NCBI GenBank assembly: GCA_947568835.1
Contig: OX387608.1
Span: 10,082,001 to 10,146,000, forward strand
Reading direction: 5' to 3'
Length of the DNA: 64,000 bases
Source of the DNA: Protonemura montana
Lineage: Eukaryota > Arthropoda > Insecta > Plecoptera > Nemouridae
The position numbers and the translations under genes are program-made. The notes below the pieces were generated by a model. That model saw only the letters and a list, made by a program, of their open reading frames with translations, had not been told where the DNA came from and ran no database searches. Within the stretch, counting starts at the first letter, position 1. Every line of letters starts with the position of its first letter. Positions 8,159-63,859 of the stretch are shown one piece after another.

Positions 8159-8876
8159 CTACAGTCTATAGCCCGCGAGAGAAGATACCAGCACAAGGAT
8201 TGCCACCCAGCATTGCTACAGTCCAGCCCGTGAGAGAAGATACCAGTCAAAGGACTGTCCCCAGCATTGCTACAGTCTAGCCCGTGAGAGAAGATACCAG
8301 CACAAGGATTGCCACCCAGCATTGCTACAGTCTAGCCCGCGAGAGAAGATACCAGCACAAGGATTGCCACCCAGCATTGCTACAGTCTAGCTCGTGAGAG
8401 AAGATACCAGCACAAGGACTGTCCCCCAACATTGCTACAGTCTAGCCCGTGAGAGAAGATACCAGCACAAGAACTGCTCCACAGCATTGCTACAGTCTAG
8501 CCCGTGAGAAAAGATACCAGCACAAAGACTGCCCCCAGCGTTGCTACAGTCTAGCCCGCGAGAGAAGATACTAGCATAAGACTGTCCCCCAGCATTGCTA
8601 CAGTCTAGCCCGTGAGAGAAGATACCAGCACAAGGATTGCCACCCAGCATTGCTACAGTCTAGCCCGTGAGAGAAGATACCAGCCCAAGGACTGTCCCCC
8701 AGCATTGCTAAAGTCCAGCCCGTGAGAGAAGATACCAGCACAAGGATTGCCACCCAGCATTGCTACAGTCTAGCCCGTGAGAGAAGATACCAGCCCAAGG
8801 ACTGTCCCCCAGCATTGCTAAAGTCCAGCCCGTGAGAGAAGATACCAGCACAAAGACCGTCCCCCTCAGTATTGCT
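8159..8876 (+). repeat. 55-bp tandem satellite, about 13 copies
   Basis: The unit contains ctacagtctagcccgtgaga, then gaagataccagcacaagga, then the ccagcattg end. Spacing is 54-57 bp. The units differ by small substitutions and indels, mostly in the run after cacaagga. The same satellite occurs in reverse orientation at 31,874-32,411. The repeat is open in one minus frame, giving a repetitive peptide, but that follows from a period near 54 bp and is not evidence of a gene. Confidence 0.96.
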
Positions 8877-20344: not shown

Positions 20345-20500
20345 AATTGCAAACGCTTGCAATGTGCGGGGTATTTTATTATTAACAACACTATAACCGT
20401 CTCAAAAATTGATGCCCAAACGCGGACTCGAACCCCGATTTCCACCTATCGCAGGTGTTGCTCTGAACCATTGAGCTATTGAACCATTGAGACGATTTTA
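20345..20500 (-). repeat. tRNA-derived SINE (minus strand)
   Basis: Read on the minus strand, the head shows an A box (TAGCTCAATGGTTCAGAG, 20,461-20,478) and a B box (GGTTCGAGTCC, near 20,424-20,434), the internal RNA polymerase III promoter of a tRNA. The body follows (catcaatttttgagacggtt) with a tail ending in ttgcaagcgtttgcaattta. Related copies lie at 23,686, 27,742, 30,305, 41,758 and 54,573. The tail is the most constant part of the family. Confidence 0.85.
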
Positions 20501-31873: not shown

Positions 31874-32411
31874 GGGGGGTAGTCCTTGTGCTGGTATCTT
31901 CTCTCTCGGGTTAGACTGTAGCAATGCTGGGGGGCAGTTCTTGTGCTGGTATCTTCTCTCACGGGTTAGACTGTAGCAATGCTGGGGGCAGTCCTTGTGC
32001 TGGTATCTTCTCTCACGGGCTAGACTGTAGCAATGCTGGGGGGCAGTCCTTTTTCTGGTATCTTCTCTCACGAGCTAGACTGTAGCAATGCTGGGGACAG
32101 TCCTTGTGCTGGAATCTTCTCTCACCGGCTAGACTGTAGCAATGCTGGGGGGCAGTCCTCTTTCTGGTATCTTCTCTCACGGGCTAGACTGTAGCAATGC
32201 TGGGGGCAGTCCTTGTGCTGGTATCTTCTCTCACGGGCTAGACTGTAGCAATGCTGGGGGGCAGTCCTTTTTCTGGTATCTTCTCTCACGAGCTAGACTG
32301 TAGCAATGCTGGGGACAGTCCTTGTGATGGTATCTTCTCTCACCGGCTAGACTGTAGCAATGCTGGGGGGCAGTCCTTGTGCTGGTATCTTCTCTTACGG
32401 GCTAGACTGTA
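31874..32411 (-). repeat. 55-bp satellite, second array, inverted, about 10 copies
   Basis: Units of gctggtatcttctctcacg plus gctagactgtagcaatgctg are the reverse complement of the 8,159-8,876 array, with the same 53-56 bp spacing. Several two-unit blocks recur (for example the gtcctttttctgg and gtccttgtgctgg variants alternating), so local duplications of more than one unit have occurred. Confidence 0.95.
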
Positions 32412-33633: not shown

Positions 33634-35855
33634 AATTTCTAACGGAGCGTTTGCTGGAAACATTTTGTTCTCTTCCGCCTCCCTGGTGTCGAAGGCAGCA
33701 CTCGCGGCACGTTGGGAGCGATATCGACTTCGAGGCATGCACCAAGAATGCAGCTCAACACTGCATTGTTTCGCCTGTAAGTATAATGCCCTATTTGGAG
33801 AGTGAACGGTTTGCTGTGTTGGAAACACCGGTTCTCGTGAGATCACCGAAGTTAAGCAACACTGCGCTGAGTCAGGTATTGGTTGGGTGACCATCATACG
33901 CATAACCAGTTCTGTGGAGGAGAGAGGTTGCAGGGATGAAAGTTAGTACAGCAACTACACTCGCGTTGCTTATCAACCTCTAGGACAGCATGGACTTGTG
34001 GAGGAATCCTCTTGTTCGAGTTGTACCGTCCATCAAAAGGGACATTAATTCGGTGATCACCTTGATGCTTTTCGACAGGAGTAAGCTACGTGCCGGCACT
34101 AGGATTCCCCTCCTCTCTTCTAGGTTTGGTTAGGTTTGTCATCATCCACTCATTCACAGACGCCATTAGACCAGCGCTACAGCGCCTGTTGTCAAAACAG
34201 TGCGTCGTTAAACTCCAGAAGCCAATTAAAACAATCTGTATTTACCTAGATTAAAATTTCTAGCCGGCTATCTTTTGATATTTTACGGCTGATTTCAATG
34301 ATACGCAGTTCTTACGTGAAGATATCTTCTGTTACAGTTGGCTGTCGGCCGAGGGATGGAAACGCTGGCACCGCGGACATCGCCAGAAACTCCGAAACTC
34401 TTCAACAGGTGAGGATTCGGTCCTAATACGTTGTTCGGTAGGCTGCTTGACGAGAGTGAGATCCGAATCGATAAGCTCCGAAACATGACCCGTACTCTGC
34501 TCTGTGACAATTGTTTGCCACATTTGTCAATAGTGTTACTGAATGCAACTGTAGAATGTATTATTTGTATGTAAGTCTAGTGGCACGCACCTACTGCCAC
34601 ATCGATTCAGACTGCATCTAGCAGTGGTGTAGCAAGGGTATAGGGTACGTCGCCCCGAACGCCTATTTTGCTTCCAGTGCAGAATAAGGATCAATAAGAC
34701 TTAAGAAATAATTGGGCGCCATTAAACTGGCGCCTGAACCGATTTTAAAGAATGGACATCTGAAGATTTTTATAGACTGGCTCCAAACTCCATTTTTTTT
34801 TTCGCTAGGATTTCTAAATAAAATCTGCACTGTGGTCCAAGTGAACCTCTCCTAATACATGGAATGACATGTCTCGTACTGTGTACTCAATCGGGTCAGA
34901 TAAAAACTTATGCATTGTTATTTTTTGACGACCCTAAATTACCCCCCCCCCCCCCCCCCCCCGACCAACGAGCCTGAAATACTGGCACCCCCACTGTAAT
35001 CAAGTGAACTTCTAGGAATATTTGTGGCTTCGTGTAAGGTAATTGTAAATTCCGTCTACTCACCTCGTGGGTAATAGGCATTCAGATGGCTCCAGTAAAT
35101 AGATATGCAATCAACCAGTGGCCAATCGAGCTAAGGGCGAGCTAATTTCAGGGAAAGTTTTGTTACTGAAGGAAATGAGTCTTGTTAGAGCAAAAGAAAG
35201 TGTTCGGCAGCAGTAATGCTGCCTATTATAATTGGTATGACTTTGGTAATAGTTCCAGTGCTTTGCACTGAGAACATTTGGTGTCAATCCACATACATTT
35301 CGCTAAAACCTAGGCAAATAAGCAATAAAAAATAATTCGCTTAGCATGAGTTTATCTCATCTGGACAAATATCTAACATTTGAACCTTCCTATACCCAGT
35401 TTAATCTAGAGATTAAGTCTTGATTTACCATCAGAAATATGGAGTTTCAAATGTTGGAGAAGTGTCCGAAGGAGATAAACCTGCCCAAACCCTCCTTAAT
35501 CTTCTTGTGTCATGTACACATGAACGGCACACCATGTCGGAGCCATGGTGGCTTCGGTTGTCAATAACCAATAAAAGCAGGGGTTATGCTAGGAAACGGA
35601 TATAAGCAAAATATAAGGCGTTTTAGTGTTGCTCATGGATGCCCTTCCTCATTCATCTTTGTTTTAGGTGGAACCGTCCCCGGCCGCAGTCACGAGAACT
35701 TGAAACATGAAGAGAACTTCGAGATATCGTCACGAAAAAGTATATTTCAAGGATCTCTACGCTCATTGTGCTATGATAAAAATGGTCAAAATGCCACTCA
35801 GTTAAAGCCCTCGAGTGTAACGCCCAAAGGACTGGAGACCTCATCACCATTTTAA
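33634..35855 (+). CDS. Small three-exon transcription unit, frame unresolved
   Basis: Three segments have consensus splice sites in order on the plus strand. Exon a is 33,634-33,776 (acceptor aatttcag, donor gcct/gtaagt). Exon b is 34,338-34,408 (acceptor ctgttacag, donor aacag/gtgagg). Exon c starts at 35,668 (acceptor tttgttttag). Joined, an ATG at 33,748 opens a 95-residue frame that uses the longest open part of exon c and ends in TAA at 35,853-35,855. Two other frames also pass through exons a and b and stop early in exon c, so the coding frame, or whether it codes at all, is unresolved. There is no recognisable domain. A 5S-type SINE occupies the first intron. A spliced noncoding RNA or the 3' part of a larger gene are real alternatives. 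Confidence 0.35.
33800..34160 (+). repeat. 5S rRNA-derived SINE, near full length
   Basis: Positions 33,824-33,895 match the 3' two thirds of eukaryotic 5S rRNA: aacaccggttctcgt, gatcaccgaagttaagcaac and ggttgggtgacc. A non-5S body shared with the 20,673-20,903 copy follows (gtacagcaactac..., gttgcttatcaacctct, tcttctagg), then a CAT-rich tail (gtcatcatccactcat). This is the layout of SINEs with a 5S head (SINE3 type). The 5S part is diverged and the gene end is absent, so it is not a working 5S gene. Confidence 0.85.
34942..34962. repeat. Poly-C tract, 21 C
   Basis: An uninterrupted run of 21 C, unusual in AT-rich DNA. A length error at this point in the assembly is possible. Confidence 0.95.
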
Positions 35856-38270: not shown

Positions 38271-41200
38271 CTAGAACGCATACCTTGTGCGAATGTCTTC
38301 GAGTTTCTTCGATACTTCGCTTGGTGTTCTGTCGAGATCGTCCGCTATGCTCTTCTGCTTTGTGGGATCAATGGAGTTGAACTGCTCGCACAAGTCTCCG
38401 TCCAACACATTCTGTAAACATAAATGTACGTGTAATTAAACACACAGGGACTGAAAATTGGAAAGCCATAGCTTTGTACGGCTAAGTTATTTTTTGCTAA
38501 TCGAATGAGATCTGAGACTTGCAACTATTTTTTAGAAAAAGGCAAGATTGTTGCAAAGTTCATACCGACAGTGCTTGGAGCAAAGCGGAAATTATGAAAC
38601 GGTGCAATACTTTCGCACCAGCTACCAACTGAAGGCGTATGGATCAGCCAAAAGCCGTTTTATGAGTGCGTTCAACTTTTAAATTCAAACGAAGAGAAAT
38701 ACTGCAATATCACAATGTTAAGTATCTCAACCAAACTTTCTTCATAAGAGGAGCAACATTGTTTCCACGTAACACCAAGTTTTCTCTCACCTTGACGGGG
38801 TAGTAGTATGAGCGAAACGAGAGATGGTCACGGCCACAGAGAGGTGCGTTCTCCGAGCGCATGTGCATCTCGAGGTGCTGGAAGAAGTCTTGATCCTCGT
38901 GCGAAGTGAACGGTACCAGCACGCCCACAGAGCCAGACAGAGTCGTGTACACCAGAGATTCGCTGCCGCCCGGTATCAAGGTTGCTTTCTGTTGCCAAGA
39001 GAGAAGATATGACGCGTTAGTGGCAAATATTTTAAAACAAATCAACAGATTCGTAGATCTGGTCTAAGATGAGGAATAAATGGTCAGCAGTTTAATGTTC
39101 ATAGTTTTCTAAAAACTCCTTGACGGCAACTATTGTATTCCAATACAAGGCTCCATTAAAAAAAATTCCTGGTGGAGCATGGTTATATAACTGAGAATAG
39201 GAGACAGAATTCAAATTACAGAGGCTATCGCAAGGTCGCAATAGCTCTTTGTAAAAAAAATTTAAAAATTTAATAGACTAATTAATGTCCGTCAGGTAAA
39301 AGAGCAGAGCGCACCTGGCTCTGCACCAAAGACATAGTTTCTTACCTGCAGGGACATGCAGATCTCACCGACGTGGAAGTTGGCTATGATGCCGGCTTTC
39401 TGGGAGGCACCATTGAGCAGACCACGATCCCACAAAGCCTTGTTGCCCGTTGGGTCTTCGTCCACGTCGTCTGACACCCCGCTCGAAAGTCGCACCTAGA
39501 AGATGGGCACAGGTGTAAAAACTTTGGTCGATGGCAGACTACTAGATAGCAGGTGGTGGTGTGGTTCTGGTGGTGGGTGGTCTGGTTTTACGTTTACTGT
39601 TATACTAACAGTCTACTATTAAGCCAAAATCAAACAAAATCTGCACTTAACCTTAAAGAGTGGCATGATAAACGAAGGACAGAAACACAGGTGATTAAAG
39701 GCATTTTATTTTCAGAATTGTATAGCGAAGACGTAAGTGAGAAATAGACCCATAAAACTTTGCAAGGTCGGCACTATCCATTCAGAGGCAGGAGACGAGA
39801 TGAAATTGCAAGACTCACAATGGCGATGTTGCCGAACTTGTCAGCAGTGGCGACAGTGTCATAATCGAGTACCGCAGTGCACGTCACCCATCGCGGGTGG
39901 GTGTCGTCGGCAAAGATGATCAGCTGGTTCTCCTGCCGCTTGTAGCGCACCATGTACACGCTCTCCTGTACGTCGGACACAAAGATGCGCTGGCCGAGAG
40001 CCTGGATGTTTACGATCAGGTTCGGGATGTGCTGCAAAGAAAAGGAAAAATGGTGTAACAATAACAATTTAGAATGGCACATGATAGTGAATGACAGGTT
40101 GTGTAGATACTGGAATGAATAGTCAGAAAAGATGGTCTTAATCAGTCTTGAAAGTGAAAATTGGAGAGCTAGAAACAAACGCTTGCCTTTAAAAACCATG
40201 AATAGCCAAAGAGGGTCTTGCCATAATAAAAAACAGACAGATGGTTTCAAACTAACCATTTGTTTTAATTATCTTGTTTATTTTACCTTGTTCTCGCATT
40301 TCCGCAGCAGCTTCTTCTTGCCCATGTCATAGAGCCGCAGCATTTTGCCGACTCCCACCAGTAAACGGCCTTGGAACGAGCAGATCGCCATGGGGACCTC
40401 GTCGACCATCGTTTGGTGGATGAGCTCAATCTGTGTGCAGTCTGCATTCACCCTGGAAAGCACAGATGACAGTTGAAATGACAGTTGAAACAGTAAAAAC
40501 AACAGGAAAACATGGTAAGCTGATAGCTCCGGTGATCAGTGCATTGTGGTTAGAATCACTATTCATTCATAAGTCTAACATGTACTTTAGCAAACATCAT
40601 GTCATACCGGAGCAATTGCGTTCCAAAGGAAGTCGAGGGATACTTAAAAACTGAAATGTATGTGTCAATAGCTGTGGCTGGGGACTCAGTAGAGCCACAG
40701 GTCTCAAAGCATACAATTGACAACAGCTGAAGCTAATCGAGTGTAGCATAAATACAACACTAACGTAAACAAGAGTTGGCACGCTAAAGCTGCGAACGGT
40801 TCTACAGGTTTAACATACTTCTACCACGTACTTGTAAGTGTATAGGAAGCCTCCAGACGCCTGCCGAGGGTTGAGCTGGTAGTCCTTGGCGACGCCGAGG
40901 ATCAGGTAATACTGGTTGTCCGCCTGGTTTGTGAACTTGACGAGGGCGATGCTGCAAAAAGGGAGACACCAAAAATCAGTGGGAGCCATCAGGGTGCGAC
41001 CGATTGGGCAAGTTGGGAGCTGGCTACAGTGGAGACTTCAAGCCAAGAATCCGCAAATATCTAACCAGTTATTGTCAAACATCTGCTCATCAGTTATCGT
41101 GGTTATATCACTAAGCAATCATAAACTTAGCCATTTTAGCATCATATGTTGCAGGAGACGAATTGATTATGTAACGTTTCACATATTTTGAAGCATAAAT

Positions 41201-44200
41201 ACATACTGCAGGACTATGAACCTTATTTGTAACTACATTATTCTTCTGTTGATCAGAAATTTGTCTAATCACACAAGTCATTACTATACTTTATCATTAT
41301 CACCATCATTTCAAGCAGAAGATTCAAAACCATTGGTCTATTGGCCTAGCAGATTCTTTGTTTAACTACTGAACTATGAACCCCACATGATAAAACAAAA
41401 AAATAATTACGAAAAGAGGTAAACATACAAATTGACTATGATAATTACAATGCAGATCATTGAAGAGTATAGACAGATCCTTCTGTTGATCAGTATTGTG
41501 GTTAAAATCACTGAGCAATCATATTACTATACTTTTGTCATTTCAACATCATTTCAAACAGAAGCGACAATCAATTAACATAACATGTTCATGGTCGAAT
41601 TATTAAATTTGACAAATAGTGAAAATGTATGTTATTTCTTGTCTTGTTTTTTTACCAGTAAAAGCCCAGGAAACAAAAATGAAGAAGTAAAAACTATGCT
41701 TGAGCTGTGTTGATGTGTAAAATGATTATCAAAAAATTGATCCCTGTTTTGACATCAATTTTTTGAGAGGTCATTATTGTTCCTAATAATAAAATACACC
41801 GCGCCTTGCAAGCGTTTGCAATTTAAATCAGATTTCGTATGTAAGGTTACACAAATATTTCAAGTGTGATCAGTGCGTAGAGGTTAGAATCAATGTAAAT
41901 TCATAAGTCTAACATGTACTTTAGCAAACATCATATCTCACTTGATCTGGATGCAACATTTGAATCAAAGTTTAATTTCCCCTAATCCCACGGCTAACTC
42001 ACCTGAGCGCAGCCTCGTTCTGCTCCAGCTTGACAACTTGCTCCGTCTTGCCCTCCACCGGGTCTAGGACGCGCACCACCGACGCCCACATGCCGGGGCC
42101 AGCCTTGGGCGCGCTGAACACATTTTCGGGCAGGTCCTCGTTGAGGAACGCATCGGCCATCTCTTTGGCCAGCTCCTGCTCCTCCTCGCCAGCAGCCTCT
42201 TGCATCTCCTGTTAAGGATCATGGGTTGGTTAGCTCAGTACTCATTCATGCACCCAGTCCAACTAGGATTTTTTTCATCAACTAATTAGTAATCATTGTA
42301 TTGTCAGAATAAGAACACTCAACAGAGATGATTAATGATGGCCGTTCTTAAATTCATCATTCTACAAATATATGCATTGCAAATAGTGACATCAAAGCTA
42401 AATCCTTGCAAAAATACACTATTGCTTTTCCCTAAATGCCTAGAAAAGCATGAAAAGTGTTTAAGCAAGCAAGATTAAAGGCCCCATTAAAAGAATCATG
42501 CAAGCTACAAATACTAACCTCTGCCATCTGAATGCGGCGCTGCTTTTTGGTCTCCTCCGTGTAGGCGTTGTGTTCGGTCTCCGTGATGATCATGTGCGCA
42601 GACTCGTGGTGGATGACGAACTTGCGTGGCGTGAAGTCGACGGGGAACGACACCTGGTTGAACACGGCGCCGAGCTTTTCCAGAGCCAGGATCCGAAGCG
42701 TGTTGGTCGAGATAGCGACGATGCCCTCCGGACACTGCTCCGAGGAGAAGCCAGAGGCGTACTCCAGGGACTCGTAAGAGAGCGGAGTCAGGTGGAACCG
42801 GTTCTGGTAGTAGTAGCTAAGCCACGAGCGGCTCGACATGGCAAGCACCTGCAAAAGGTGGAGAGCAAACATTTAGTTAGAGCCAGAGGTCTAGTAATTT
42901 TGTTGGAATAGCATGGTTGGTCATAAGCCTAACATTGACAAACAAAGAGGGAAGACTAGCTGTCTTTGCAAAAAAAGGCAGCCAAATGGTAACTTTACTA
43001 ATTAACTGGAGACTGTCATTTTTAGTGTAAAGAAATTTGAAGTCATAACTCATCATAAGCTATCTTAACAATGACAAAGGCAACATGCCGAAATGCTAAA
43101 ATTCTTTGAAGTTTGTAGCCAATCGCACCACACGCAGCTAATTTTCTCCTCCAACTAGATATGCTCCCCCTCTTTCTCTTCACCACAACAACCTTCACAT
43201 CCTAGGTCCCTATAGCAGCCCCACTTGCAAAAATAACCTGAAACCAATTAAAATGCAAGGTCTTGTTAAGAAAGCATGAAAAGTCAACTCACCGCTTCGC
43301 TGCCCTGCATTTTGATACGAAAAAGCTTGACGGGCCGGGAGCCGAGGTACCGGGTGCGTGTATCTGTGAGGTCCCCAGTCACTTGGTCGAGCACCGTGCG
43401 CAGCAGCACGCCATTTTGCAGGCCGATATTGAGGTACAGAGAGCCAGACGAGCCACCCTCTCCATCCGAAGACTCTCCACCGCCCATCACCACAATACAC
43501 AGGCTGTCAGCGGGAGCTGGCAGCGCTTGCATACTCAGCGGGGACAAGCAGTCCTGCAAGCAAAACGCAATGTTAGGTTGTTGAAAGTGACGGTTTGGCC
43601 AACATACACGACTTACTGTACTTTCTAGGCAGTCTGGCAATAGCACAGGCACAACCAGTTAAGTTGATTATGGGTTGATTTTAAGGATTTGAATACAAGC
43701 AAGTTTTTCCTCTGCCTCAGTTGGTAATGCATGTAACTTTGACTCATGGTTGTTCGTGATTCAGTGTTTAGTTGTCATCATCGGCAGGAAATCGCAAGCT
43801 ACAAATTTCAACCAGTTTTGTTCCATGTTTCACAAAAAGACCACTGCAATAAACATAAATCGCAAACAGAAAACTGATCTTATTGGAGCTATATGAAATT
43901 TTTGGATTATGTGTAACAGATATAAAACCAAGAACAAGCACCTGGAACAGTGTCGAGTTCTAACGATGAGTTTCTGTATTGATCTAGCACCGTTTGCGAA
44001 CCAAGACGGGATTAATTAGCCGGCCCTAGGAGATACCGAGATGCAATCACATAAATGTATTCCTTACAATTAATTTTGTGAACACGAAACTATGTTACAA
44101 ACACAATGTTCATTCAGATCTATATGTCTACTAACATTTTTAGTCCAACTATATTTTAGCACCCAAAGTGTATCAAGATTTTCCTCAGCCTCAGTTGGTA

Positions 44201-47200
44201 ATGCATGTAACTTTACTCATGGTTGATCGTGATTCAGTGTTTAGTTGTCATCATCGGCAGGGATTTCTCAATACATTTTTTTAAGAGAATCACTTCTGAT
44301 CACAAAGCCAGTGCAATGGAAACGAATCAAAATTAGAAAAGAAATTAATTAATTATAAACTATAATTATTATTTATAAATTAATTCGAGACCCAGGAAAT
44401 GACTGGGTATTGTAACAGATATAAAACCAAGAACAAGCACCTGGAACAGTGTCGAGTTCTAACGATGAGTTTCTGTATTGATCTAGCACCGTTTGCGAAC
44501 CAAGGCGGGATTAATTAGCCGGCCCCAGGAGATACCGTGATGCAATCACATAAATTTACCGGAGTATTCCTTACAGTTAATGTTGTGAATACAAAACAAT
44601 GTGACAAACACAATATCCATTCAGATCTATATGTCTACTACCATTTTTAGTCCAACTATATTTTAGTGCCAAAAGTGTATCAAGATTTTCCTCAGCCTCA
44701 GTTGGTAATGCATGTAACTTTACTCATGGTTGATCGTGATTCAGTGTTTAGTTGTCATCATTGGCAGGGATTTCTTGATACATTATTTAAGAGAATCACT
44801 TCAGACCACAAAGCCAGTGCAATGGAAATTAATCACTATTAGAAAAGTAATAAATTATTACATACTATAATCACTATTTAATCGGAGACCCAGGACATGA
44901 CTGGGTATTGTAACAGATATAAAACCAAGAACAAGCACCTGGAACAGTGTCGAGTTCTAACGATGAGTTTCTGTATTGATCTAGCACCGTTTGCGAACCA
45001 AGGCGGGATTAATTAGCCAGCCCCAGAAGATACCGAGATGCAATCACATTAATTTTACCAGAGCATTCCTTACAGTTGATTTTGTGAATACGAAACAAAG
45101 TGACAAACAGTGTTCATTCAGATCTACATGTCTACCATCATTTTTAGTCTAACTACCGTTGAATGCTATATTTTAATATTTGTGCTTTTCAATATTCAAC
45201 ATTTACAATGTCTCTTCTCTGTCTCAGTTGGTAATGCATGTTTAAAAGACTCACGGTTAATCACGATTCAGTGTTTACTTATCATCACAGACAGAGCACT
45301 TTCCCTTCAGTTACAAAACTGCAAACTCTAAATTGATTGTACGATCTTATTACCAGATTAAAAAATAATTCTACATCGTCGGCGTACAGCTTGGTTAAAC
45401 TCAAACCTAAAACCATCTCTACAACAGAAAATCCAAATTCTTAAAATCTCGATAGCGAGTCGAAGAAACATTGAAAGAAGCAAAACCCAGACACTGGAAG
45501 TAAACTCACCGATGGGTCTAGCGAGATCACTCTGACTGTGTTGTCAGCAAGGCCGACGGCCAAAAAGCGCGATCTCTGCTCCCCACTTGGTACATTGGCC
45601 AGGGCCATGCAGACAGCTTCCGACGGCATCTCCTTCCTCTCTGTGTACTCGTTAAGCTGGCCCGTCTGGAAGAAACATCAATCTGTTAGTAGTCTCTAGG
45701 GATTTCAGAACAAGTTTGGAAACGTGGCCGTAGAAAGTTGTCTGTCAAGTCTTTCAGTGATTTGAGGTATCGTCAAAGCAGTCAGAAACACGGACCAAAT
45801 CGAAGTCATCATATTAGGACTTGACAGTTGCTGAAGGCAGAAAAACAAGAGCGACAATACTTTTAGTGGATTTAATGAAAATGCAATAAACACAGCTGGA
45901 TTGAAAGTCCTGTGATCAGCACCAGTGGGCCATTTTAAAATTAGTGGGGTGCTTACCGGATCCATTTCAAAGTAGACGAGCTCTCCGCCCGTGAGCGCAA
46001 TTACTACTTGGCGCTGGTTGACGGCGCACTTGACGATGGTCTTCTTACCAGGCGCTTTCCACTCGTTAACTCGCTTATCGGCGCGGATGTGACGGATGCC
46101 GTCAGGGTACACCTAAACAGGTGGCAAACTCGAGTTAACGTCCGAAATACCAAGCAGCAGGGGACCAGCAGCAGAGGAGGTTGGCCGGCATCAGTTCACT
46201 CGATAAATGGAATCATTACGCTCATATGTCGCAAAACTTAGACATCATATCGGCCAAGATGGCAATGAACTTGCAGTGGATGATTGGACAGCAAATGACT
46301 ACTACCAGTACAAGGAGCAGCTGTTTATCTCAAACCCAGGTAATAGTACACTAACTCATGGCAAGAGCCAAAATAATTGTTTAAAGAACTTTTAAGGGTT
46401 AAATGCTTCCCACAGAGCTGACAAAAGCTGTAATAAAGACATACTTTACAGAGACAGATGCATAGGACATGGGTCTGTCGAAGCCACACAAAACTTCAAG
46501 ATTTAGAAGACACTTTAATTTCCAGACCAAGATATGAAATCTCGCTGTGTTCAAGTCATAGCAAATGTGGAGCAAGCTGCCAAGACCCATAAATGATTTC
46601 AGGTGTAATAAAAAAGGAGTGTTGGTTAACAAAGTGAGCTTCCCAACAATTCTCACCTGTACAAGAGCCTCGTCTCCGAGCGCAGAACAGGACAACGTCG
46701 GGGTCGTGCCAAGGAATCCGGAGTCCGTCACCTCCTCCACAGTCTCCCCAATCGACAGGACCAGCGTCGCATTCACGAACGACACAATAATGTAAGCGTC
46801 GTACTCCTCTGAAAATATACCAACATACAACACGTCGTATCTTTCATCTCACTGCAGCAAGCGTAAAGAGCGAAGGTCAAAAAAATCATCTACTAATTTC
46901 TACTGTACTAGCGACAAAGAAAACAGCAAAAGTGCATGGCACAAGGGTTCAGTAAAATCCCAACACTGGTCAAGTTGAGAAAGACACAGAACGAAGCACG
47001 TTTGCCAATTTAAATAAAATGTGGAGAGTAATTTCAATGCGCTGCCGTAACGTAGGTCCTAGCCATCCTTCCGTCACGATTTCAATTCTCACCTTCGGTT
47101 GATGAGCCAAACAACCATCTCCAACTAAGTGCCCCGTATGCCTGCAATAGAAAGCAACTGGTGATTGATATGCAGATATCAAATCAACCAGTTTTGTCAT

Positions 47201-50200
47201 TAATATATTCCAGAACGTGCAAGCCAGCGCACCCACCGACAAATGCTGCAATGTTTCTCACTAAAAGTTAATCAGCGCAATAGAAATGTGCATCTCTCGT
47301 ACTTTCCACAACTTTGCTTTGCCACAGCATGGTTTAAGTGTCATTAACGAATCAGGCATCCCACTAACATGAACAAACGTTGGCCAACATCTCCATCTGT
47401 TGCAAATGGCAAAGATGGGAATAGAGCCCATTTTGCATGTTTGCAAATACAGCTTAAGTATAAATTTTTCTACTCAAGTCACTAAGAGGGCAAGACTCTG
47501 AAGGTAAATGCCGGCTAGATAAGAAAACCAAACGGCAGCTCACCATCAACTCTGCGCTTCACAGTCCAGACGGCGTTGGGATTTCCAGGCAACTCGGAGA
47601 CTGCCATCTCGGAAACTTCCAGCCCGTGCCGTAGGACGCGAACCGAGGATCGGGGACCTCGACCGCACAACATGTACAGCTGGGGGGTGTCCTCGTTGGC
47701 TGGAACGGAACGCAAAGCTCAATAACATGGTAAAGACTGGTAACAGAAATCAATGCAAGAATGTTTGCTATTATCAGCTTTACGTCAAGTTTATAATCAT
47801 TAAACAATCAGGTGAAACACGGAAAGTGTCATCATATGTAGCGATGGTAAGAGGTTATGTCATTGGAGACATTTGGCAGGTGCTTACCCAAATCTGCAAC
47901 CTGGCAGTTGAGGATCGGGGAAAGCGAGTCGAGCTCGTCGACCAAGACGAGATTGCTAAGTGGTCGCGGGGCGAAAAAGAAAGTGTCTCCCTCTTCTAGA
48001 GGCATGGCCGAACTGAATTCGGGCTCATCGTCGTCGTCCCCAAGATGAGCAATTTGGTAGAGGTAGCTGCAACCCAAAGAAATAAATTAGGACAAGTAAC
48101 TTACGAGGTATGAACTACACAATGGTAGCAATTTTTCAGGTTGTCGAGTAGTAATCAAAAAACAAGTTCAGGTGAAACACGGACAAAAATCATCATAGAA
48201 AAAATAGAACCATTAAAAACTTAACGAGAAGAAAACGGACTTACTGGTTTCCGAATTCTGAAGCGGCGAACAAGAAACCGGTCTTCATGACACACATTGA
48301 AGTAGCGACAGGTATTGTGTCAAAGTATTTGAGTTTAATCTCGGTGACCATGTCTTCGTCTGTTTCGAGAGTGATCTTGAAGATGTCTCCTTGCTCAGTT
48401 TGCGCAAGAAAAAAGAACATGGTCTTCGTCTTGTGAGTCGCTGAACAGACAAAGATCATTCCTCTCTCGGGGTCATCCAGGTCATTCTAAGAAGGAAAAT
48501 AATGTTCCATTTAACACAACTCTAATTGCTTTACTCATGATGAACAAAGAATAATTTTACATCAGAATTTTGTCATGGTATAATCAAAAAACATTCAGAA
48601 ACACGGACCAAAATTGTCATCATATTTAGCCTCCTTTACTCGAACTATCGACTAACTGAATTAAAGAATCTCACCCTTCTTCGAGGTATCGGGCACCGGA
48701 TATCATGTTGGTCGCCGAGGTTTTTATAAGTCAGGTAATTTTCTGAACAAATGAGAACTCCGCTCGGTCCGTCATTGCCTCCAGGCACGGAAACCAAGAA
48801 ATTTGCATGTTCTTCCAGGGGTTCACTGTATTTACGCACAACGTGATTAAGACCAAGGTCTAACTCATAAAAGGTAAGAGTTTGTTGGGTTTTGTGGGCA
48901 GCCTCTCCAGTTGGGTCTGTATCAGCTTCCTGCAAAAAAACAGATAAATTATTGATGGCACACCTCAATAACGTAAGGAAATATTGAAGTTCTGCTTTGG
49001 TCAGCATGTTTTGACTTGGTTTGTAATCAAAATTATCAGAAACACAGGATATTTGTCATCATTCCAAAGTGAACTTAATGAACTACAATACTTTTAGGAA
49101 ATTACCTCATAGTCAATTTCCAGACAAGCAAACATTGGATTTTCAAAGCCAACGTCCACTCCTACAGTGTGGTACACAAGCGTATTACTTTTGTGCGCTT
49201 CTAAAGGCGAGGAAATAGTCAGTCTGGCTTCCGCGTCTCTGTTGAGAATGTAAACAAGTTTCTGTTTCTCAATTGCACCTGAAATTAGAAAATATTATCT
49301 TAATATCAAAAATACCCGATGATAAGTACACTTTAATCAGGACCCATGCCAAGCGGTATGAAAAGACTAGCTTAAGCATGTTTAACAAACATGGTCTTAC
49401 CGATCAACACAGCTCGGCCCTTGGGGTCGATAGCTAGGTATTGGCCTGGAACAATCCTCCGACAACCACTCTTGCCGAAAGTCTCCTGGTGAATCTTGTC
49501 GAACACATTTTTGGCAGCTATGTATTCCAGGATAACAATTCTTCCTGAATCTGACCCGACAACTATGTAATCTGTAAATAAAGGTTAAGTTAAGTTTTAC
49601 TTCATAAAGGTACCAAATTTGTATCTAATCTTAACAATAAAATCATACAGTAACAGCAAAGAATAAAGATAGGTTAGGTAGAAACCTAACGTAATACAAT
49701 CGACATGTTTTCCAACAAAATAGTTCTCCATTGTGCTAATCTGCGCGCTTTGAGTAGAAAATCGCTTTTCATACCGACCAAGTTAAAAAATCTTTAGTTT
49801 ATTCTTGCCTGCTGCAAGCAATAGTACTACAATCGCATTTCAAGAGCTTGTAGCAGACAAGGATGAACTGCGTATTATTTAGTAGGCATCCTTGTAGGCA
49901 AGGATGAACTAGTTTTTTTTTGTAACTAAGCAGAATTTCTACCACTAGCACACACATATTAACACATGGGAAAACTATTTTGTTTCAAGTCTCCTTGATT
50001 GTATTACGTTAAGCTTCTACTGAACCCATCTTTTTTATATGGTAACAGTTCTGTGGAGCAGACAATAGAAAAAAATGTTAGCTTTTTAAAATAGTTGAGA
50101 TAGGAAGCATGCTTTCTACCTTTGGTTCCTCCAGTTAAACGAAATGCCATCATGGATCGAACAATCCCAAATACTTCGACAGTAAGCAAAGTATGGACTT

Positions 50201-50345
50201 TGCCTGTCTGAGGGTCTGGCCGAAGTAGCTCCAGGGACTTTCCCCTTGAGACAAGTATCTCCTGCATTTTGCTACCACTGAAATTCCCATGCACCGCATG
50301 GGTAATTCCAGTGGCTCGCTGGAGAGTCAAATTATAGAGATGCAT
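38271..50345 (-). CDS. SF3B3: SF3B3, splicing factor 3B subunit 3 (SF3b130/SAP130)
   Basis: This is a core subunit of the SF3b complex of U2 snRNP, acting in branch-site recognition in the nucleus. Nineteen coding exons join in frame to 1,216 codons plus stop (the human protein is 1,217 residues): 50,120-50,345; 49,401-49,571; 49,106-49,278; 48,675-48,929; 48,245-48,486; 47,888-48,066; 47,544-47,699; 46,657-46,808; 45,957-46,112; 45,510-45,665; 43,293-43,553; 42,519-42,848; 42,003-42,208; 40,832-40,951; 40,287-40,452; 39,819-40,031; 39,346-39,495; 38,791-38,988; 38,271-38,411. All have GT-AG boundaries and consistent phases. It starts [13 protein letters not shown], contains [23 protein letters not shown] and [16 protein letters not shown], and ends [12 protein letters not shown]. 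It shows the family's DDB1-like MMS1-type N-terminal and CPSF_A C-terminal beta-propeller regions. The residues around 858-885 are more acidic than in human. The introns carry many snoRNAs. It is divergent from the gene at 51,295. Confidence 0.99.
40526..40613 (-). ncRNA. C/D snoRNA, snR58/SNORD104-like, intron 14
   Basis: A perfect 8-bp terminal stem (GCTCCGGT with ACCGGAGC), box C ATGATGT (40,594-40,600) and D CTGA (40,536-40,539). It has the same internal guide and D' as intron 13 copy d (GTACATGTTAGACTT-ATGA). Its stem sequence differs completely from copy d while staying paired. A second constant region before D reads TCTAACCACAATGCA, target unknown. The 3' end lies about 73 nt before the 3' splice site. 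Confidence 0.9.
41083..41154 (-). ncRNA. C/D snoRNA candidate, intron 13 copy a
   Basis: Box C-like ATGATGC, D CTGA (41,090-41,093) and a CTGC/GCAG stem. The region before D (ATAACCACGATAA) resembles intron 13 copy c and the intron 14 RNA. It is the weakest of the intron 13 set. Confidence 0.5.
41244..41320 (-). ncRNA. C/D snoRNA candidate, intron 13 copy b
   Basis: A 9-bp terminal stem with one bulge (TTCTGCTTGA with TCAACAGAA) encloses box C-like ATGATGG and D CTGA (41,253-41,256). The sequence before D (ATTAGACAAATTT) is unlike the sisters. Stem and context are shared with copy c, so a duplication is likely. Confidence 0.62.
41481..41563 (-). ncRNA. C/D snoRNA candidate, intron 13 copy c
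   Basis: A 9-bp terminal stem (TTCTGTTTGA with TCAACAGAA, one bulge), box C ATGATGT and D CTGA (41,490-41,493). The sequence before D is TTTTAACCACAATA, close to the intron 14 RNA. Confidence 0.7.
41758..41845 (+). repeat. 3' half of a tRNA-SINE copy
   Basis: Body (catcaattttttgagagg) and tail (ttgcaagcgtttgcaattta) of the SINE family without a head. It lies in SF3B3 intron 13 in antisense orientation, next to copy d of the snoRNA cluster. Confidence 0.8.
41861..41944 (-). ncRNA. C/D snoRNA, snR58/SNORD104-like, intron 13 copy d
   Basis: The stem CAAGTG/CACTTG encloses box C ATGATGT, an internal guide GTACATGTTAGACTT followed by D' ATGA, and D CTGA (41,870-41,873). The guide pairs over about 12-15 nt with 28S AGUCUAACAUGUGC. 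The fifth nucleotide before D' opposes the C of GAGUC, the position methylated under snR58 (yeast C663) and SNORD104 (human) guidance. Confidence 0.82.
42296..42367 (-). ncRNA. C/D snoRNA, snR40/U32-like guide, intron 12
   Basis: Terminal stem TTGTA/TACAA, box C ATGATGA (42,354-42,360), and D CTGA (42,304-42,307). After box C, TTTAAGAACGGCCAT pairs for 13 nt with 18S rRNA AUGGCCGUUCUUA, the site served by yeast snR40 and vertebrate U32. No perfect D' follows; a degenerate ATTA one base later would place the fifth nucleotide opposite a G of AUGG. The 3' end lies about 87 nt before the 3' splice site. Confidence 0.72.
43712..43787 (-). ncRNA. C/D snoRNA candidate, intron 10 family, copy 1
   Basis: The stem CTGCC/GGCAG brackets box C ATGATGA (43,775-43,781) and D CTGA (43,717-43,720). 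An inner CTGA after AACTAAACA may be D'. The region before D is ACATGCATTACCAA, constant in all four copies, so it is the likely guide. I could not place it on rRNA or snRNA from memory. Confidence 0.72.
43909..44045 (-). ncRNA. H/ACA snoRNA candidate, intron 10 cassette copy 1
   Basis: The 3' hairpin and boxes match those detailed for 44,408-44,545: H box AGATCA (43,980-43,985) and ACA (43,912-43,914). The 5' end is approximate. Confidence 0.5.
44188..44260 (-). ncRNA. C/D snoRNA candidate, intron 10 family, copy 2
   Basis: It has the same boxes and the same ACATGCATTACCAA-CTGA end. A substitution weakens the terminal stem to GCC/GGC. Confidence 0.62.
44408..44545 (-). ncRNA. H/ACA snoRNA candidate, intron 10 cassette copy 2
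   Basis: On the minus strand, H box AGATCA (44,479-44,484) precedes a hairpin with lower stem ACAGA/TCTGT (44,472-44,476 with 44,415-44,419), an internal loop, upper stem AGAAC/GTTCT (44,456-44,460 with 44,430-44,434), then ACA (44,411-44,413) three bases from the end. Sixteen nucleotides separate the upper stem from ACA, within the 14-16 nt rule for the pseudouridylation pocket. The 5' hairpin (GGCCGG/CCCGCC upper stem) is less certain, and so is the 5' end. The target is not identified. Confidence 0.52.
44693..44767 (-). ncRNA. C/D snoRNA candidate, intron 10 family, copy 3
   Basis: It has the same boxes and guide. The stem is weakened as in copy 2 and one base before box C differs. Confidence 0.6.
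44906..45045 (-). ncRNA. H/ACA snoRNA candidate, intron 10 cassette copy 3
   Basis: The 3' half is identical to copies 1 and 2 (H box AGATCA at 44,977-44,982, ACA at 44,909-44,911). The 5' half has substitutions. The 5' end is approximate. Confidence 0.5.
45217..45296 (-). ncRNA. C/D snoRNA, intron 10 family, copy 4 (strongest stem)
   Basis: A perfect 7-bp stem (CTCTGTC with GACAGAG), box C GTGATGA (45,282-45,288) and D CTGA (45,224-45,227), with the same CATGCATTACCAA guide. Its stem sequence differs from copy 1 yet still pairs. That is compensatory change and argues for a selected RNA structure. Confidence 0.78.
45742..45827 (-). ncRNA. SNORD18: C/D snoRNA, U18 (SNORD18) type, intron 9
   Basis: This is the best-formed member: a perfect 10-bp terminal stem (CTGTCAAGTC with GACTTGACAG), box C ATGATGA (45,806-45,812), guide ATTTGGTCCGTGTTT then D' CTGA (45,782-45,785), and D CTGA (45,754-45,757). 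The guide gives 13 pairs to 28S AAACACGGACCAA. The 3' end lies 76 nt before the 3' splice site, the textbook position for intron-processed C/D RNAs. Confidence 0.94.
47767..47842 (-). ncRNA. C/D snoRNA, U18 family with shifted D' box, intron 6
   Basis: Box C ATGATGA (47,829-47,835), guide TTTCCGTGTTTCAC then D' CTGA (47,808-47,811), D CTGA (47,774-47,777), and a short GCTA/TAGC stem. It has the same three-base shift as the intron 5 copy, and the upstream half of the guide has decayed (CTTTCC rather than GGTCC). The 3' end lies about 67 nt before the 3' splice site. Confidence 0.82.
48130..48202 (-). ncRNA. C/D snoRNA, U18 family with shifted D' box, intron 5
   Basis: Box C ATGATGA, guide TTGTCCGTGTTTCAC then D' CTGA, D CTGA (48,136-48,139), and an A-U terminal stem. 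Three extra bases (CAC) separate GTTT from D' compared with the other U18 copies. The guide still pairs with 28S UGAAACACGGAC, but the fifth position before D' moves three nucleotides, to the middle A of GAAAC. The 3' end lies about 63 nt before the 3' splice site. Confidence 0.83.
48557..48628 (-). ncRNA. SNORD18: C/D snoRNA, U18 (SNORD18) type, intron 4
   Basis: Box C ATGATGA (48,617-48,623), guide ATTTTGGTCCGTGTTT then D' CTGA, and D CTGA (48,562-48,565). The guide gives 13 uninterrupted pairs to 28S AAACACGGACCAA. The terminal stem is weak. The 3' end lies about 70 nt before the 3' splice site. Confidence 0.85.
48995..49069 (-). ncRNA. C/D snoRNA, U18 family member with altered guide, intron 3
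   Basis: A perfect 6-bp terminal stem (CTTTGG with CCAAAG) closes box C ATGATGA, D' CTGA after the guide AATATCCTGTGTTT, and D CTGA. The guide keeps CTGTGTTT but has lost the GGTCC part, so at best 6-7 nt still pair with the U18 target. The 3' end lies about 65 nt before the 3' splice site. It is clearly a family member, but its target is unknown. Confidence 0.8.
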
Positions 50346-50408
50346 TCTAGCAGTGTTAGTGCTCTAAAAGAGCACTCCTGGGGCTGGTGTTTACTCGGTA
50401 GCCTCCAT
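50346..50408 (-). promoter_or_regulatory. SF3B3 5'UTR exon with 5-codon uORF
   Basis: An acceptor (ctctttcag, AG at 50,409-50,410) precedes an untranslated stretch leading to the SF3B3 ATG at 50,343-50,345. The first bases of this exon are ATG, opening a short frame (MEATE) that stops at 50,391-50,393, 45 nt before the main ATG. A strong donor (GCT/GTAAGTATG) at 50,726-50,730 would end a first untranslated exon starting beyond 50,731. The intron between holds a U18-type snoRNA. The transcription start is not determined. Confidence 0.6.
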
Positions 50409-50482
50409 CTGAAAGAGGGAAAGAAAATTTAAAAATATCCAAGTGCTGTTGGCCTTAGGCCTAAAACACGCGATCTTCAAAA

Positions 50483-50570
50483 TTGAGCACATTTCAGCAT
50501 TTAGCCTTTTATTATCAAAAGACATTCAGAAACACGGACCAAAATATGATCATCATAATAATATGCTCAA
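50483..50570 (-). ncRNA. SNORD18: C/D snoRNA, U18 (SNORD18) type, 5'UTR intron
   Basis: On the transcribed strand it has a terminal stem (TTGAGCAT with GTGCTCAA), box C ATGATGA, guide TTTTGGTCCGTGTTT directly followed by D' CTGA, and a final D box CTGA. The guide pairs perfectly for 13 nt with 28S rRNA AAACACGGACCAA. The fifth nucleotide before D' opposes the A in AAACACGG, the site modified under U18 direction in yeast (25S A649) and human. Its 3' end lies about 74 nt before the 3' splice site. Confidence 0.9.
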
Positions 50571-50849
50571 TACTTCAACCTCGGTGAAAAAAGACACACT
50601 TTGAACAAGGGGGACCAACCAAAGCCATTGAGAAGCCGGCATCGTGGCATCATTTAAGAATATTACGATAAATACCAAACAAATACGAAAAAATCGATTA
50701 CAATTGGTCTGGAAGCATCGCCATACTTACAGCTTATTATTCAGTAACGTTTTTAGTTAGAAATAGGCAAAAATTGGATAAAAATTGTAAATCCTAGTTG
50801 CAAACAACTCTCCACGGCGCCGGCTGAATGAAGAAGACCGCTAACCGGA

Positions 50850-51294
50850 ATATCGTTGGGGATTCACTACTTGTACAAGAAATCCAAGATGGCTCCATGC
50901 ATCCGGAGATGACGACACAAGTGACCAAAAATACGGAGGGGGGATAAGTGAATTGACAGTCAATATATCAATCAGCTGTTTCTATTGGACATAAGATATC
51001 TACGCCCCATTACCTCAGATAATTTTACCTGTTGTTATGGTGACGAGACGCTACTGGTCAGCATAATATTTTTTAAGCCATGTGCAAATTAAGTAATTAA
51101 CGTATATGTCTTTGCCCGGTAAGTTCAACTTCTAGTCGTAACCGAAGTCTACACAATGGGGCGGGACTCTGACCCTTTGACAGTCAAGCCAAGCTTTGAT
51201 TTTCATCCCATTTAAAGCATTCTTTATATTTCTAGAATAAGAACGCTGCGAAACGGGATTCAAATTGAACCTCGGATAAGAAAAATTACAAGTA
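50850..51294. promoter_or_regulatory. Likely bidirectional promoter region
   Basis: SF3B3 (minus) and the 51,295 gene (plus) diverge from here. The interval contains a GC-rich patch (cacggcgccggctgaatg, near 50,812) and an aagatggct motif (near 50,887) like a YY1 site, common near starts of housekeeping genes. Start sites are not fixed by the sequence. Confidence 0.5.
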
Positions 51295-54200
51295 ATGGAT
51301 CTAGCCGAAACAATGAAAAACATTGTTGCTAAAGGCATACAGACTGAAATGGGCCCTCCATTTCCTGGCACAGGATATGTGACGGAAAAGATTTACATGC
51401 TACTGCAGCTTTATTTACAAAATAAAGGGTGGAATCCTTCTGTGGAGCTTCTGCAGTGTTTTACTGAGCTAAAGGAGGCATCGATGCTCCCTAGTGCAGC
51501 CTACTTACAGTATGTAACAATATAACAATGTATACACAAATACAATGTAACAAAAATTGGTTAATTGCTCTGATTTTGATCGTTATGATATTATGATTGA
51601 AACTTAAACATCCATGACCGAATGCATTTCTAACCATTTTTGCAATTACAGGATGATGGCCTCTCGAGTTGCACTAGATGGTCAGGGAAGATTACTGTTG
51701 AGAGAAAACGGAAAGATCATACTCCCTTACGAGCATTTTGCCAACGCAGTCATGTTGAAACATATGAATGGTCCTCACGGTCTACATCTTGGCTTAGAAG
51801 GAACTATAAGGGCGGTAAGTGGAAACAAGTACATCCAAGCTAAATTCACCTATCAACTTTTTTATTTTATGTGAAGAAAATTACAGAATTATCTAATGAT
51901 ATCAAAGATGATATCAAAGCTTAGTTGACAAAAGATTGTACCTACCTAGATTTCTACTTCCTATTTAATTGAGTGAGAACTCTGACGATTTTGCATTTCT
52001 TGTTTGTAGGTGATGGAATCGTATACAATCGGCAGAGAATGCTTTGGGATGGAGAAAGAGTTCATCATTGAAGTCGTCCAAAACTGCCCAAACCCTGCTT
52101 GCCGCTACTACAAAAATCAGCTTGAGCTGACACAGAAGTCACTGCATATGAGTGGGCCTACCTATATACCTGAAACAGGCAGCGACAAACTTGACAAGAA
52201 TGCAAAAATTAAGTCCCTTGCAGATGCGTATTATGGTAAGCACAGGGCAAATTATAGAATTGTAGAGGTTTCGTTTAAAATTATGGCCGCAAGCGCCATC
52301 AGGTGGCACGTACCATAAGCAAGTGTTGCCGGCTCATTTACTCAGTAGAACGTTTAACATTAGCGCTGTGACTCTGAATGTATCGCAGTTTTGGCGCCTT
52401 TATTTTAAGTCCCACGCACCAAGTACCCTACACTAGTGAGTCCCCATTTGTTCCGTTTCATTTTACCAAAATTTCTTTTAGCTAACTCAATTATGAATGA
52501 TATTATGAGTTGTTCCTTTTTTCAAATTCAGCTGCAGTTAGATGTCAAAACCTAGGTCTATTAGGTAACGACAACCTTTTAACAAAGTTTTATCTCCACA
52601 CATTAATGTTTACTCACCATTTCAGCGGCATCACAACTCCCTCAGAACCAAGACAGCAGCAACCTTCTCCGCGGCAATCAGCAGCAATTCTCGACCAGCT
52701 CGACGACCAGCACAGACTTCAACGTGCCGCTGCCCCAGCAGTCCCTGGGCAACCTTCACCACCCGGTCGACTTGACGGGGCTGAACCAGCCGCTCGACAA
52801 GCGATCACAGGACAAGGCCTCGCGCGGCCACGAAAAGCAACACAAGGCTCACTATGAGCCAATGGGACAGCTTAGCGCCGAGCACAAGCTTGCCGACTTT
52901 CTTCGTGCTAATCTCGAGAATTTCGAGGGACTATCGAGTGCAAACAAGGTGGGAGATTTTTTGAATCTGGGACCTAGTTTGAGAATGGTTTAGTTGAAGG
53001 GATTCCCTGTTTTTCAATTGCTTGCTCTATTCCTGAACTTTGTTTTTTAGGATCTTCTTGCCCTTCATAACGGTGCTTGGGCAAACAATGACATGGACCT
53101 TCGTAAAGTATCGTCATCAGAAGGTGAGATAAATTACATCTTTTCTTCAATTACAGTGAACTGACACTTTTCATTTTGATAACCAGTGACTTAAGAACGT
53201 AAAGCTTCAAATATTAACGCCCGAGTTGGATACCTCTGTCTTTGTTATGGGGAAAAGAAGAGAAGGAACACAACCTACAGCGATTGAAAAGTTGGTTGCG
53301 ATGAATGCATAGATTTTACGATGTTTCGATTTTGCTGTATTGCCTCTTTTAGTGCCGTGTGTACTTCCAAACATGCTCCCTATGGCGATTAACGGGGCTC
53401 GTCTAAGGGATATTATCATATTACAGCTTTCGAGGCTAATGTCAAAATGTGGTTTTATATTTTACTTTGCCAAGCGTCATCTGTTCAACATTTCTTACAT
53501 AATACCTTGCACGCTTGTATTTTCAACAGCAATGTATTAAGAACTACCGACAAGTAACGTGGTTGACGGCATGTGTTTATTTTGCTAGTGGGTCAGGAGA
53601 AAATCGTCCGTGCATTCGCGGAGATCATGAAAAACATGACACGGATGAAGACGTGTGTCAGGCCGGCCATGTGTAAACCGTACGGCAAACAGTCGGAGGC
53701 GCTGCAGAAAAGTGAGTCAACCAATTGCTATCGATCCAAATGGTTGTCAATCATTATCCACCAATTGTGTGCCAAACGAATCGTTATATTTTTTCGAATC
53801 TGCTGCAGGCAGCCAAGCATATTGCTAAATAATGCTTAATCAATATAAATTTATATACGGCTCAAGAATATGGAATACGCAGTTAATGCTAAGTATGAAC
53901 ACCTCATCGCAATCTACCAAGTATGATTACAATTAATTTATAGTTGTGTTTACTATTTCTACACTAAACATGCTATGTCATTATCAAAACAATTACTTAT
54001 TTCCAAGCCTAGAACCGTGCAATAATCAAAATGACACCTCAATGCCAACAATATGAAATAACGATAAATCAATTGCTATCCAATTATATGCCAATGGAAT
54101 CTAGCCTGTTATTTGTGCGCCCAGCAAAGTTATGCTATTGCAATGTATAATTTATTTTTAATTGAACCATTTTGTGGTATCAAAATATATTTTGCAGAGG

Positions 54201-60089: not shown

Positions 60090-63859
<3,770 letters not shown>

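Follow-up and report, generated by a model that had tools for sequence, protein, structure and literature searches.

The introns of the SF3B3 gene of the plecopteran Protonemura montana very probably encode 16, possibly 17, box C/D small nucleolar RNAs (snoRNAs) and, probably, three copies of a box H/ACA snoRNA, which would guide the modification of ribosomal RNA (rRNA) and would have multiplied by local duplication. The gene lies on the minus strand of a stretch of 64,000 nucleotides (nt) from contig OX387608.1 (assembly GCA_947568835.1, positions 10,082,001 to 10,146,000), here called the window, whose own numbering is used below. An earlier account made from the letters of this DNA alone (the sequence-only reading) had named SF3B3 as the host and placed the snoRNAs on its transcribed strand, and the exon mapping bears this out.

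Sixteen translated exon pieces of SF3B3 were mapped on the minus strand. When joined, they align end to end with PDB chains named 'Splicing factor 3B subunit 3' (E = 0). Among the matches listed, the top named match of the protein was from the termite Zootermopsis nevadensis (92%), followed in identity by a named match from the stick insect Timema tahoe (91%, covering 93% of the query); an N-terminal query of 465 amino acids was 94% identical to one protein cluster. The first exon is non-coding, with its end at about 50731, and the 16 coding pieces run from 50351 down to 39816, where the mapped part stops and below which the gene continues. GT-AG introns were set around the mapped exon pieces, intron 0 being the one that follows the non-coding first exon; the donor of intron 14 is GTACGT at 40831. 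About 0.5 kb upstream of SF3B3, open frames that perhaps form one gene occupy 51280-52993 on the opposite (plus) strand. Two short pieces of these frames had no Pfam match, and the divergent pair may share a promoter region. The host gene and the C/D RNAs, named after their introns, are as follows.

39816..50740, minus strand: SF3B3 host gene, mapped part (exon pieces, PDB match, termite SF3B3 at 92%, introns).
50490..50561, minus strand: i0, C/D RNA of the U18 type, D' guide predicted for the 28S A1313 equivalent (RF00093, 44.4 bits, gathering score 41; stem of 12 pairs, one of them GU).
48997..49067, minus strand: i3, U18-like C/D RNA with an altered guide (RF00093, 27.4 bits; stem of 6 pairs).
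48558..48628, minus strand: i4, C/D RNA of the U18 type, 15-pair D' guide predicted for 28S A1313 (RF00093, 40.1 bits, just under gathering).
48131..48204, minus strand: i5, U18/SNORD126-like C/D RNA whose box D' is displaced onward by 3 nt; its family likeness assigns it to 28S A1310.
47769..47838, minus strand: i6, C/D RNA in the register of i5, predicted for 28S A1310 with 11 pairs (DdR12, 24.0 bits; RF01159, 21.2 bits).
46187..46255, minus strand: i8, C/D RNA, target uncertain (stem of 7 pairs; RF00266, 15.4 bits only; box D 78 nt from the 3' splice site).
45741..45817, minus strand: i9, C/D RNA of the U18 type, predicted for 28S A1313 (RF00093, 37.3 bits; stem of 10 perfect pairs).
45218..45295, minus strand: i10a, C/D RNA of the U33/SNORD33 type, predicted for the 18S U1326 equivalent with a 12-pair guide (RF00133, 46.2 bits, gathering score 44).
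44692..44768, minus strand: i10b, U33-type copy (RF00133, 37.2 bits).
44185..44261, minus strand: i10c, U33-type copy, identical to i10b from box C to box D and sharing a recent tandem repeat with it (RF00133, 36.0 bits).
43711..43788, minus strand: i10d, U33-type copy (RF00133, 41.6 bits).
42297..42368, minus strand: i12, weaker C/D candidate (box and stem scan; 13-nt complement to conserved 18S).
41862..41943, minus strand: i13a, C/D RNA that carries the fly Me28S-Cm788 guide and is predicted for 28S C1327, the SNORD104 site (RF00577 SNORD72, 27.7 bits; RF00539, 26.5 bits).
41483..41561, minus strand: i13b, C/D RNA (stem of 8 perfect pairs; RF00577, 25.2 bits).
41250..41320, minus strand: i13c, C/D RNA with bounds set by us, target uncertain (boxes and stem; box C imperfect).
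41083..41155, minus strand: i13d, C/D RNA with bounds set by us (boxes and stem).
40528..40612, minus strand: i14, C/D RNA with bounds set by us and the guide of i13a, predicted for 28S C1327 (RF00289 SNORD104, 19.2 bits; stem of 8 perfect pairs).

All 16 C/D RNAs and the weaker seventeenth in intron 12 are on the transcribed strand. Introns 0, 3, 4, 5, 6, 8, 9 and 14 hold one each, and introns 10 and 13 hold four each. RUGAUG and CUGA are present in all 16, with 56-65 nt from the start of box C to the end of box D; the final base of box C deviates in six (i8, i13a-d and i14). A terminal stem of at least four contiguous pairs was found for 13 of the 16, the others being i4, i10b and i10c. The totals of 16 C/D and three H/ACA candidates are the same as those of the sequence-only reading, which gave no item list from which the two sets could be mapped one to one; its separate distance of 87 nt for intron 12 suggests that the candidate there was counted. 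Perfect terminal stems as long as the 10 pairs that it claimed do occur, in i9.

A cmscan search of the whole window with the Rfam models gave three matches above the gathering score, namely SNORD33 (i10a), SNORD18 (i0) and one 5S rRNA. At E ≤ 5 over 11 kb, all 28 rows listed, from which eight overlapping same-clan matches are excluded, were C/D families on the sense strand. These rows touch 12 of the 16 candidates, i6, i8, i13c and i13d being without one. Such a run had been proposed as a check by the sequence-only reading; it supports the C/D part, with two RNAs above gathering and the sense-only rows, and gives weak support for the H/ACA part.

We also scanned for boxes with terminal stems. 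The limits of a first scan were fixed after the Rfam matches and before the candidates were listed; it returned 11 rows on the sense strand, among them eight of the 16 candidates, none on the antisense strand, and four in the remaining 103 kb, the two strands of the rest of the window being counted together. A second scan of positions 40000-50800, with limits fixed after the listing, gave 14 sense hits, no antisense hit and one in the other 103 kb, and 200 dinucleotide shuffles gave a mean of 0.15 and a maximum of 2. It retrieved 13 of the 16 candidates and the one in intron 12, and missed i4, i10b and i10c, which have no contiguous stem beside their boxes. On the antisense, rest-of-window and shuffle controls, an explanation by chance was rejected.

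Comparison of the copies showed where they are conserved. Fourteen chosen pairs within groups were 69-100% identical between boxes C and D, whereas the flanks 21-80 nt outside the boxes were 43-60% identical, with three of 26 values higher than 54%, the 95th percentile for random 60-mers. The pair i10b/i10c stood apart, with flanks 85% and 93% identical; both lie within a recent 500-bp tandem repeat. The RNAs i13a and i14 have a common guide, but i13a has a perfect stem of 7 pairs and i14 a different one of 8, and the stems of i0 and i9 also differ (12 pairs with one GU versus 10 perfect pairs). These comparisons bear on the alternative that a mobile or satellite-like element carries incidental box motifs and that these are not snoRNA genes. 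Tandem units of about 500 bp in intron 10 and the abundance of other tandem arrays in the window would suit such an element. We regard it as very improbable, since the likeness of copies from different introns is present between the boxes and absent 21-80 nt outside them, their stems differ yet pair, their guides match conserved rRNA, and the scan found nothing on the antisense strand.

The position of the RNAs within their introns was also restricted. In the eight introns with a single C/D RNA, the distance from the end of box D to the 3' splice site is 69, 71, 74, 75, 78, 83, 85 or 88 nt, and uniform placement reproduced so narrow a range (69-88 nt) in none of 200,000 trials. Box D of the intron 12 candidate lies 95 nt from the splice site, and with this candidate included one of 200,000 trials did as well. 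The last C/D RNAs of introns 10 and 13 are 163 and 138 nt away. The distances of 63-76 nt, and 87 nt for intron 12, read previously from the letters fit roughly if they were counted about 8 nt further on than box D. On the snoRNA reading, the RNAs would be released from the spliced introns and then guide rRNA modification. We infer expression, processing and methylation in Protonemura, as well as the order of the duplications, from the sequence. A regulatory link between the output of this U2 snRNP protein and rRNA modification, which the sequence-only reading had proposed for SF3B3, would be a feature general to intronic snoRNAs.

Guide targets were read off eukaryotic rRNA genes (rDNA) of uncertain origin in bacterial assemblies, not off Protonemura rRNA. 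The modified site is the fifth nucleotide upstream of box D or D'. By this rule, i0, i4 and i9 are predicted to act on the last A of GAAACA in 28S rRNA, i5 and i6 on the A 3 nt before this A1313 equivalent, i13a and i14 on the C 14 nt after it, and i10a-d on a U within 18S GGUGGUGCAUGG. In total, 11 of the 16 were assigned to human-modified sites, namely 28S A1313 (three), A1310 (two), C1327 (two) and 18S U1326 (four), in keeping with the earlier claim that several guides match known methylation sites. The human modification table contains 28S Am1310, Am1313 and Cm1327 and 18S Um1326 (PMC6182160). On reference L007 the three 28S sites lie at 0, +3 and +17, which is the spacing of human 1310, 1313 and 1327. 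The assignment of motifs to human numbers is otherwise our assumption.

The strength of the guides was assessed with 200 mononucleotide shuffles per string. None of the shuffles reached the 15-pair guide of the string standing for i0 and i4 or the D' string of i13a and i14, and two reached that of i9. The A1313 guides stand best on their own, the C1327 guides depend on one reference, and the assignments of the four U33-type RNAs, i5 and i6 lean on known families. Two pairings were rejected: that of the i8 D' guide with conserved 18S GUCGCAAGGCUGAAACUUA has 11 pairs and was equalled by 52 of 200 shuffles, and that of i13c with 18S GAUUUGUCUGG by 17 of 200.

Several results weigh against these assignments, or against the cluster as a set of functional guides. 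The references are themselves a substitute, as stated above. Fourteen of the 16 C/D RNAs score below the Rfam gathering scores, and the E-values of Rfam searches on short single stretches (among them those on i5, i6, i8, i12, i13a and the H/ACA candidate H1) are flattering. The C1327 guide pairs at 15 positions in L007 only, compared with 10 positions at the same site in L001. For i5, nine of 200 shuffles did as well and the best rRNA match was at a site different from A1310; for i6, A1310 was the best match, but 22 of 200 shuffles reached it. The U33-type guide score was reached by 18 (i10a) and 16 (i10b) of 200 shuffles for two strings. The strings from i13a D (8/200) and i10 D' (5/200) each matched one reference and were not assigned, and because 26 strings were tried, scores near these values mean little. 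Five of the 16 (i3, i8, i13b, i13c and i13d) have no convincing target in the reference rDNA. Exact matches of at least 11 nt between the introns and four reference rDNAs showed no enrichment (39 sense versus 44 antisense); only matches common to at least three references separate the strands, six to none, by a criterion chosen afterwards. As a bipartite guide for a predicted uridine target, the 3' hairpin of the H/ACA candidates fits 18S ACCGUAAACGAUG with 5 + 7 pairs in reference L003 only, and with 18 of 200 shuffles doing as well this target is not significant.

The U18-type group comprises i0, i3, i4, i5, i6 and i9. Like SNORD18/U18 (RF00093, RF01159), i0, i4 and i9 have a D' guide with UUGGUCCGUGUUUC and the predicted target 28S A1313; the host differs, being SF3B3 here, and vertebrate U18 genes are in RPL4. 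Against the SNORD18 gathering score of 41, i0 lies above and i4, i9 and i3 lie below. In i3, no rRNA target was found in the reference rDNA, 127 and 147 of 200 shuffles doing as well. Rfam matched i5 to snoU18 (RF01159, 23.8 bits, gathering score 47) and SNORD126 (RF01168, 23.0 bits, gathering score 55). On alignment, the SNORD126 model shares its register with i5, and so does the snoU18 model, there with a 3-nt insertion before D'. The antisense stretch of SNORD126, with its box D' displaced onward by 3 nt, is found in i5 (as aligned) and in i6 (by eye); unlike SNORD126, the remainder of both resembles the adjacent U18-type copies. The SNORD126 gathering score was not reached by i5, and i6 was not listed for that family; i5 is assigned as probably working like SNORD126, not as a family member. 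SNORD126 is the published guide of human 28S Am1310 (PMC9941101).

Within this group, a box D' lying 3 nt further downstream would produce A1310 guides beside A1313 guides. It is conceivable, although we hold it at somewhat below even odds, that Am1310 guides arose by this shift from Am1313 guide copies within SF3B3, so that the gene carries dedicated guides for three methylations close together in one 28S segment, at A1310, A1313 and C1327. If true, the U18/SNORD126 pair would have been re-invented in place, within possibly the largest snoRNA set known from an SF3B3 gene. The compact duplicated series offers natural material on the way in which displacement of box D' redirects a guide to an adjacent nucleotide, and the cluster as a whole yields concrete methylation predictions.

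The RNAs i13a and i14 resemble Drosophila snoMe28S-Cm788 (RF00539) and SNORD104 (RF00289) in their guide for 28S C1327 (human numbering). They differ in scoring below gathering, and i13a matches SNORD72 slightly better than RF00539 (27.7 versus 26.5 bits). The RF00539 alignment of i13a includes the guide, which has 15 pairs in L007, and the score does not reach gathering (45) despite the same guide; i13a is not counted as a member of that family. The i14 guide likewise pairs in full in L007 only. The intron 12 candidate can pair through 13 nt with 18S AUGGCCGUUCUUA, a stretch that each of the four searched references contains and that adjoins the U33 target; the candidate has no clear D' box.

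In intron 10, tandem units of about 500 bp carry four U33-type C/D RNAs alternating with three near-identical H/ACA candidates.

44909..45042, minus strand: H3, H/ACA candidate (AGATCA at the hinge, then ACA; two hairpins when folded separately; its repeat unit and that of H2 are 96% identical).
44411..44544, minus strand: H2, H/ACA candidate (AGATCA and ACA, hairpins folded apart; unconstrained fold differs).
43909..44045, minus strand: H1, H/ACA candidate (RF00431 SNORA55, 16.5 bits at full length, gathering score 45; E 0.19 in a 171-base search).

The C/D copies share boxes, guide, terminal stem and the predicted 18S U1326 site with SNORD33/U33 (RF00133), from which they differ in being four in one intron, interleaved with H/ACA copies. 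Only i10a is above the gathering score of 44, the other three lying at 36.0-41.6 bits. A further 13-nt pairing of i10a just upstream of the 18S U1326 site was seen in reference L003 only and is not claimed. H1, H2 and H3 are almost identical over about 135 nt, outside which H1 diverges. The AGATCA hinge and ACA occur in all three, and each gives two hairpins when cut at the hinge; when they are folded whole, the best structures differ among the three. Like SNORA55, H1 aligns over its full length with hinge and ACA in place, but its score is below gathering in a separate search that covered H1, and it is not identified as SNORA55. The 5' hairpin had no convincing rRNA target in the reference rDNA. 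The H/ACA evidence is weaker than the C/D evidence.

The set as a whole would go back to a few founders that were duplicated locally time and again. These would be a U18-type RNA, a Me28S-Cm788/SNORD104-type RNA and the founder of a small intron 13 group, together with a U33-type RNA that may have been duplicated along with the neighbouring H/ACA RNA as the 500-bp unit. Some copies may be decaying, or chance matches (i3, i12, i13c and perhaps i4), which would bring the working number nearer to 12-15 C/D RNAs. The altered guide of i3, the lack of a clear terminal stem in i4, which the stem scan did not pick up, the missing D' box of i12 and the imperfect box C of i13c all point this way; yet both C and D boxes persist in i3 and i4, whose distance to the 3' splice site is also kept (71 and 75 nt), and i3 has a 6-pair stem. 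We consider such a minority possible, if not quite probable.

SF3B3 is a recurrent snoRNA host across the species studied in one survey, and Drosophila Sf3b3, with six C/D and three H/ACA snoRNAs, exceeds the other species considered there (PMC12309372). The gene is also named as a host in a fly expression study, which reports 1 to 15 snoRNAs per gene (PMC9074282). Human SF3B3 contains Snord111A and 111B in different introns (PMC6124571), and in chicken a SNORD111B counterpart is found in introns 3 and 6 (PMC2653536). A SNORD111 orthologue was sought in the Protonemura introns and rejected, the matches being weak and sub-gathering (RF00611, 19.8 and 20.0 bits).

The Drosophila and vertebrate hosts (PMC12309372; PMC6124571; PMC2653536) are alike in the gene, the intronic C/D RNAs and duplication, and the fly also in H/ACA RNAs; Protonemura differs in its 16-17 C/D and three H/ACA candidates, where the fly has 6 + 3 and the vertebrates examined have fewer. 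We think it somewhat probable that this is an ordinary insect SF3B3 cluster, a version, with no new element, of the reading proposed here in which the families of Drosophila descend from a common insect ancestor and are present in more copies. Most C/D snoRNAs of the nine in fly Sf3b3 group together (PMC12309372), and i13a has the guide of fly Me28S-Cm788; the available part of that survey does not name the families inside the fly gene, and common descent is a supposition. Flies would also have guides named Me28S-A771 and A774, whose sites would lie 17 and 14 nt before C788, like A1310 and A1313 before C1327.

The claim that the cluster is new in kind is not supported, because recurrent hosting by SF3B3 has been published, the Drosophila gene having nine snoRNAs (PMC12309372), and the guides resemble known families. 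The Protonemura cluster is a new, unusually large example of a known arrangement. What is new is its size, the local amplification and the guides that come in pairs with box D' offset by 3 nt; an insect SF3B3 snoRNA cluster this large was not found in the available texts of the openly licensed literature, supplements aside. The relation between SF3B3 and snoRNAs is extended beyond Drosophila to another insect, with about twice as many candidate RNAs.

Other features of the window lie away from SF3B3. The 5S rRNA match noted above is a single 5S-like gene at 33802-33920 on the plus strand (44.0 bits, gathering score 38) with several non-standard pairs, and ARAGORN in its bacterial setting placed a tRNA-Ser (anticodon CGA) at 20413-20484 on the minus strand. 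Two 55-bp tandem arrays (8159-8878 and 31874-32411), separated by 23 kb, have related units that run in opposite directions, and an array of 8.6 copies of a 114-bp unit occupies the left edge (1-978). An open frame at 60726-61463 (minus strand) had one homologue, 80% identical over 76% of a 199-amino-acid query, and no Pfam match; it presumably corresponds to the end of a retroelement protein. A piece of a DREV-type methyltransferase lies at 62279-62599 on the minus strand (PF05219, E 5e-21), which we take to be METTL9.

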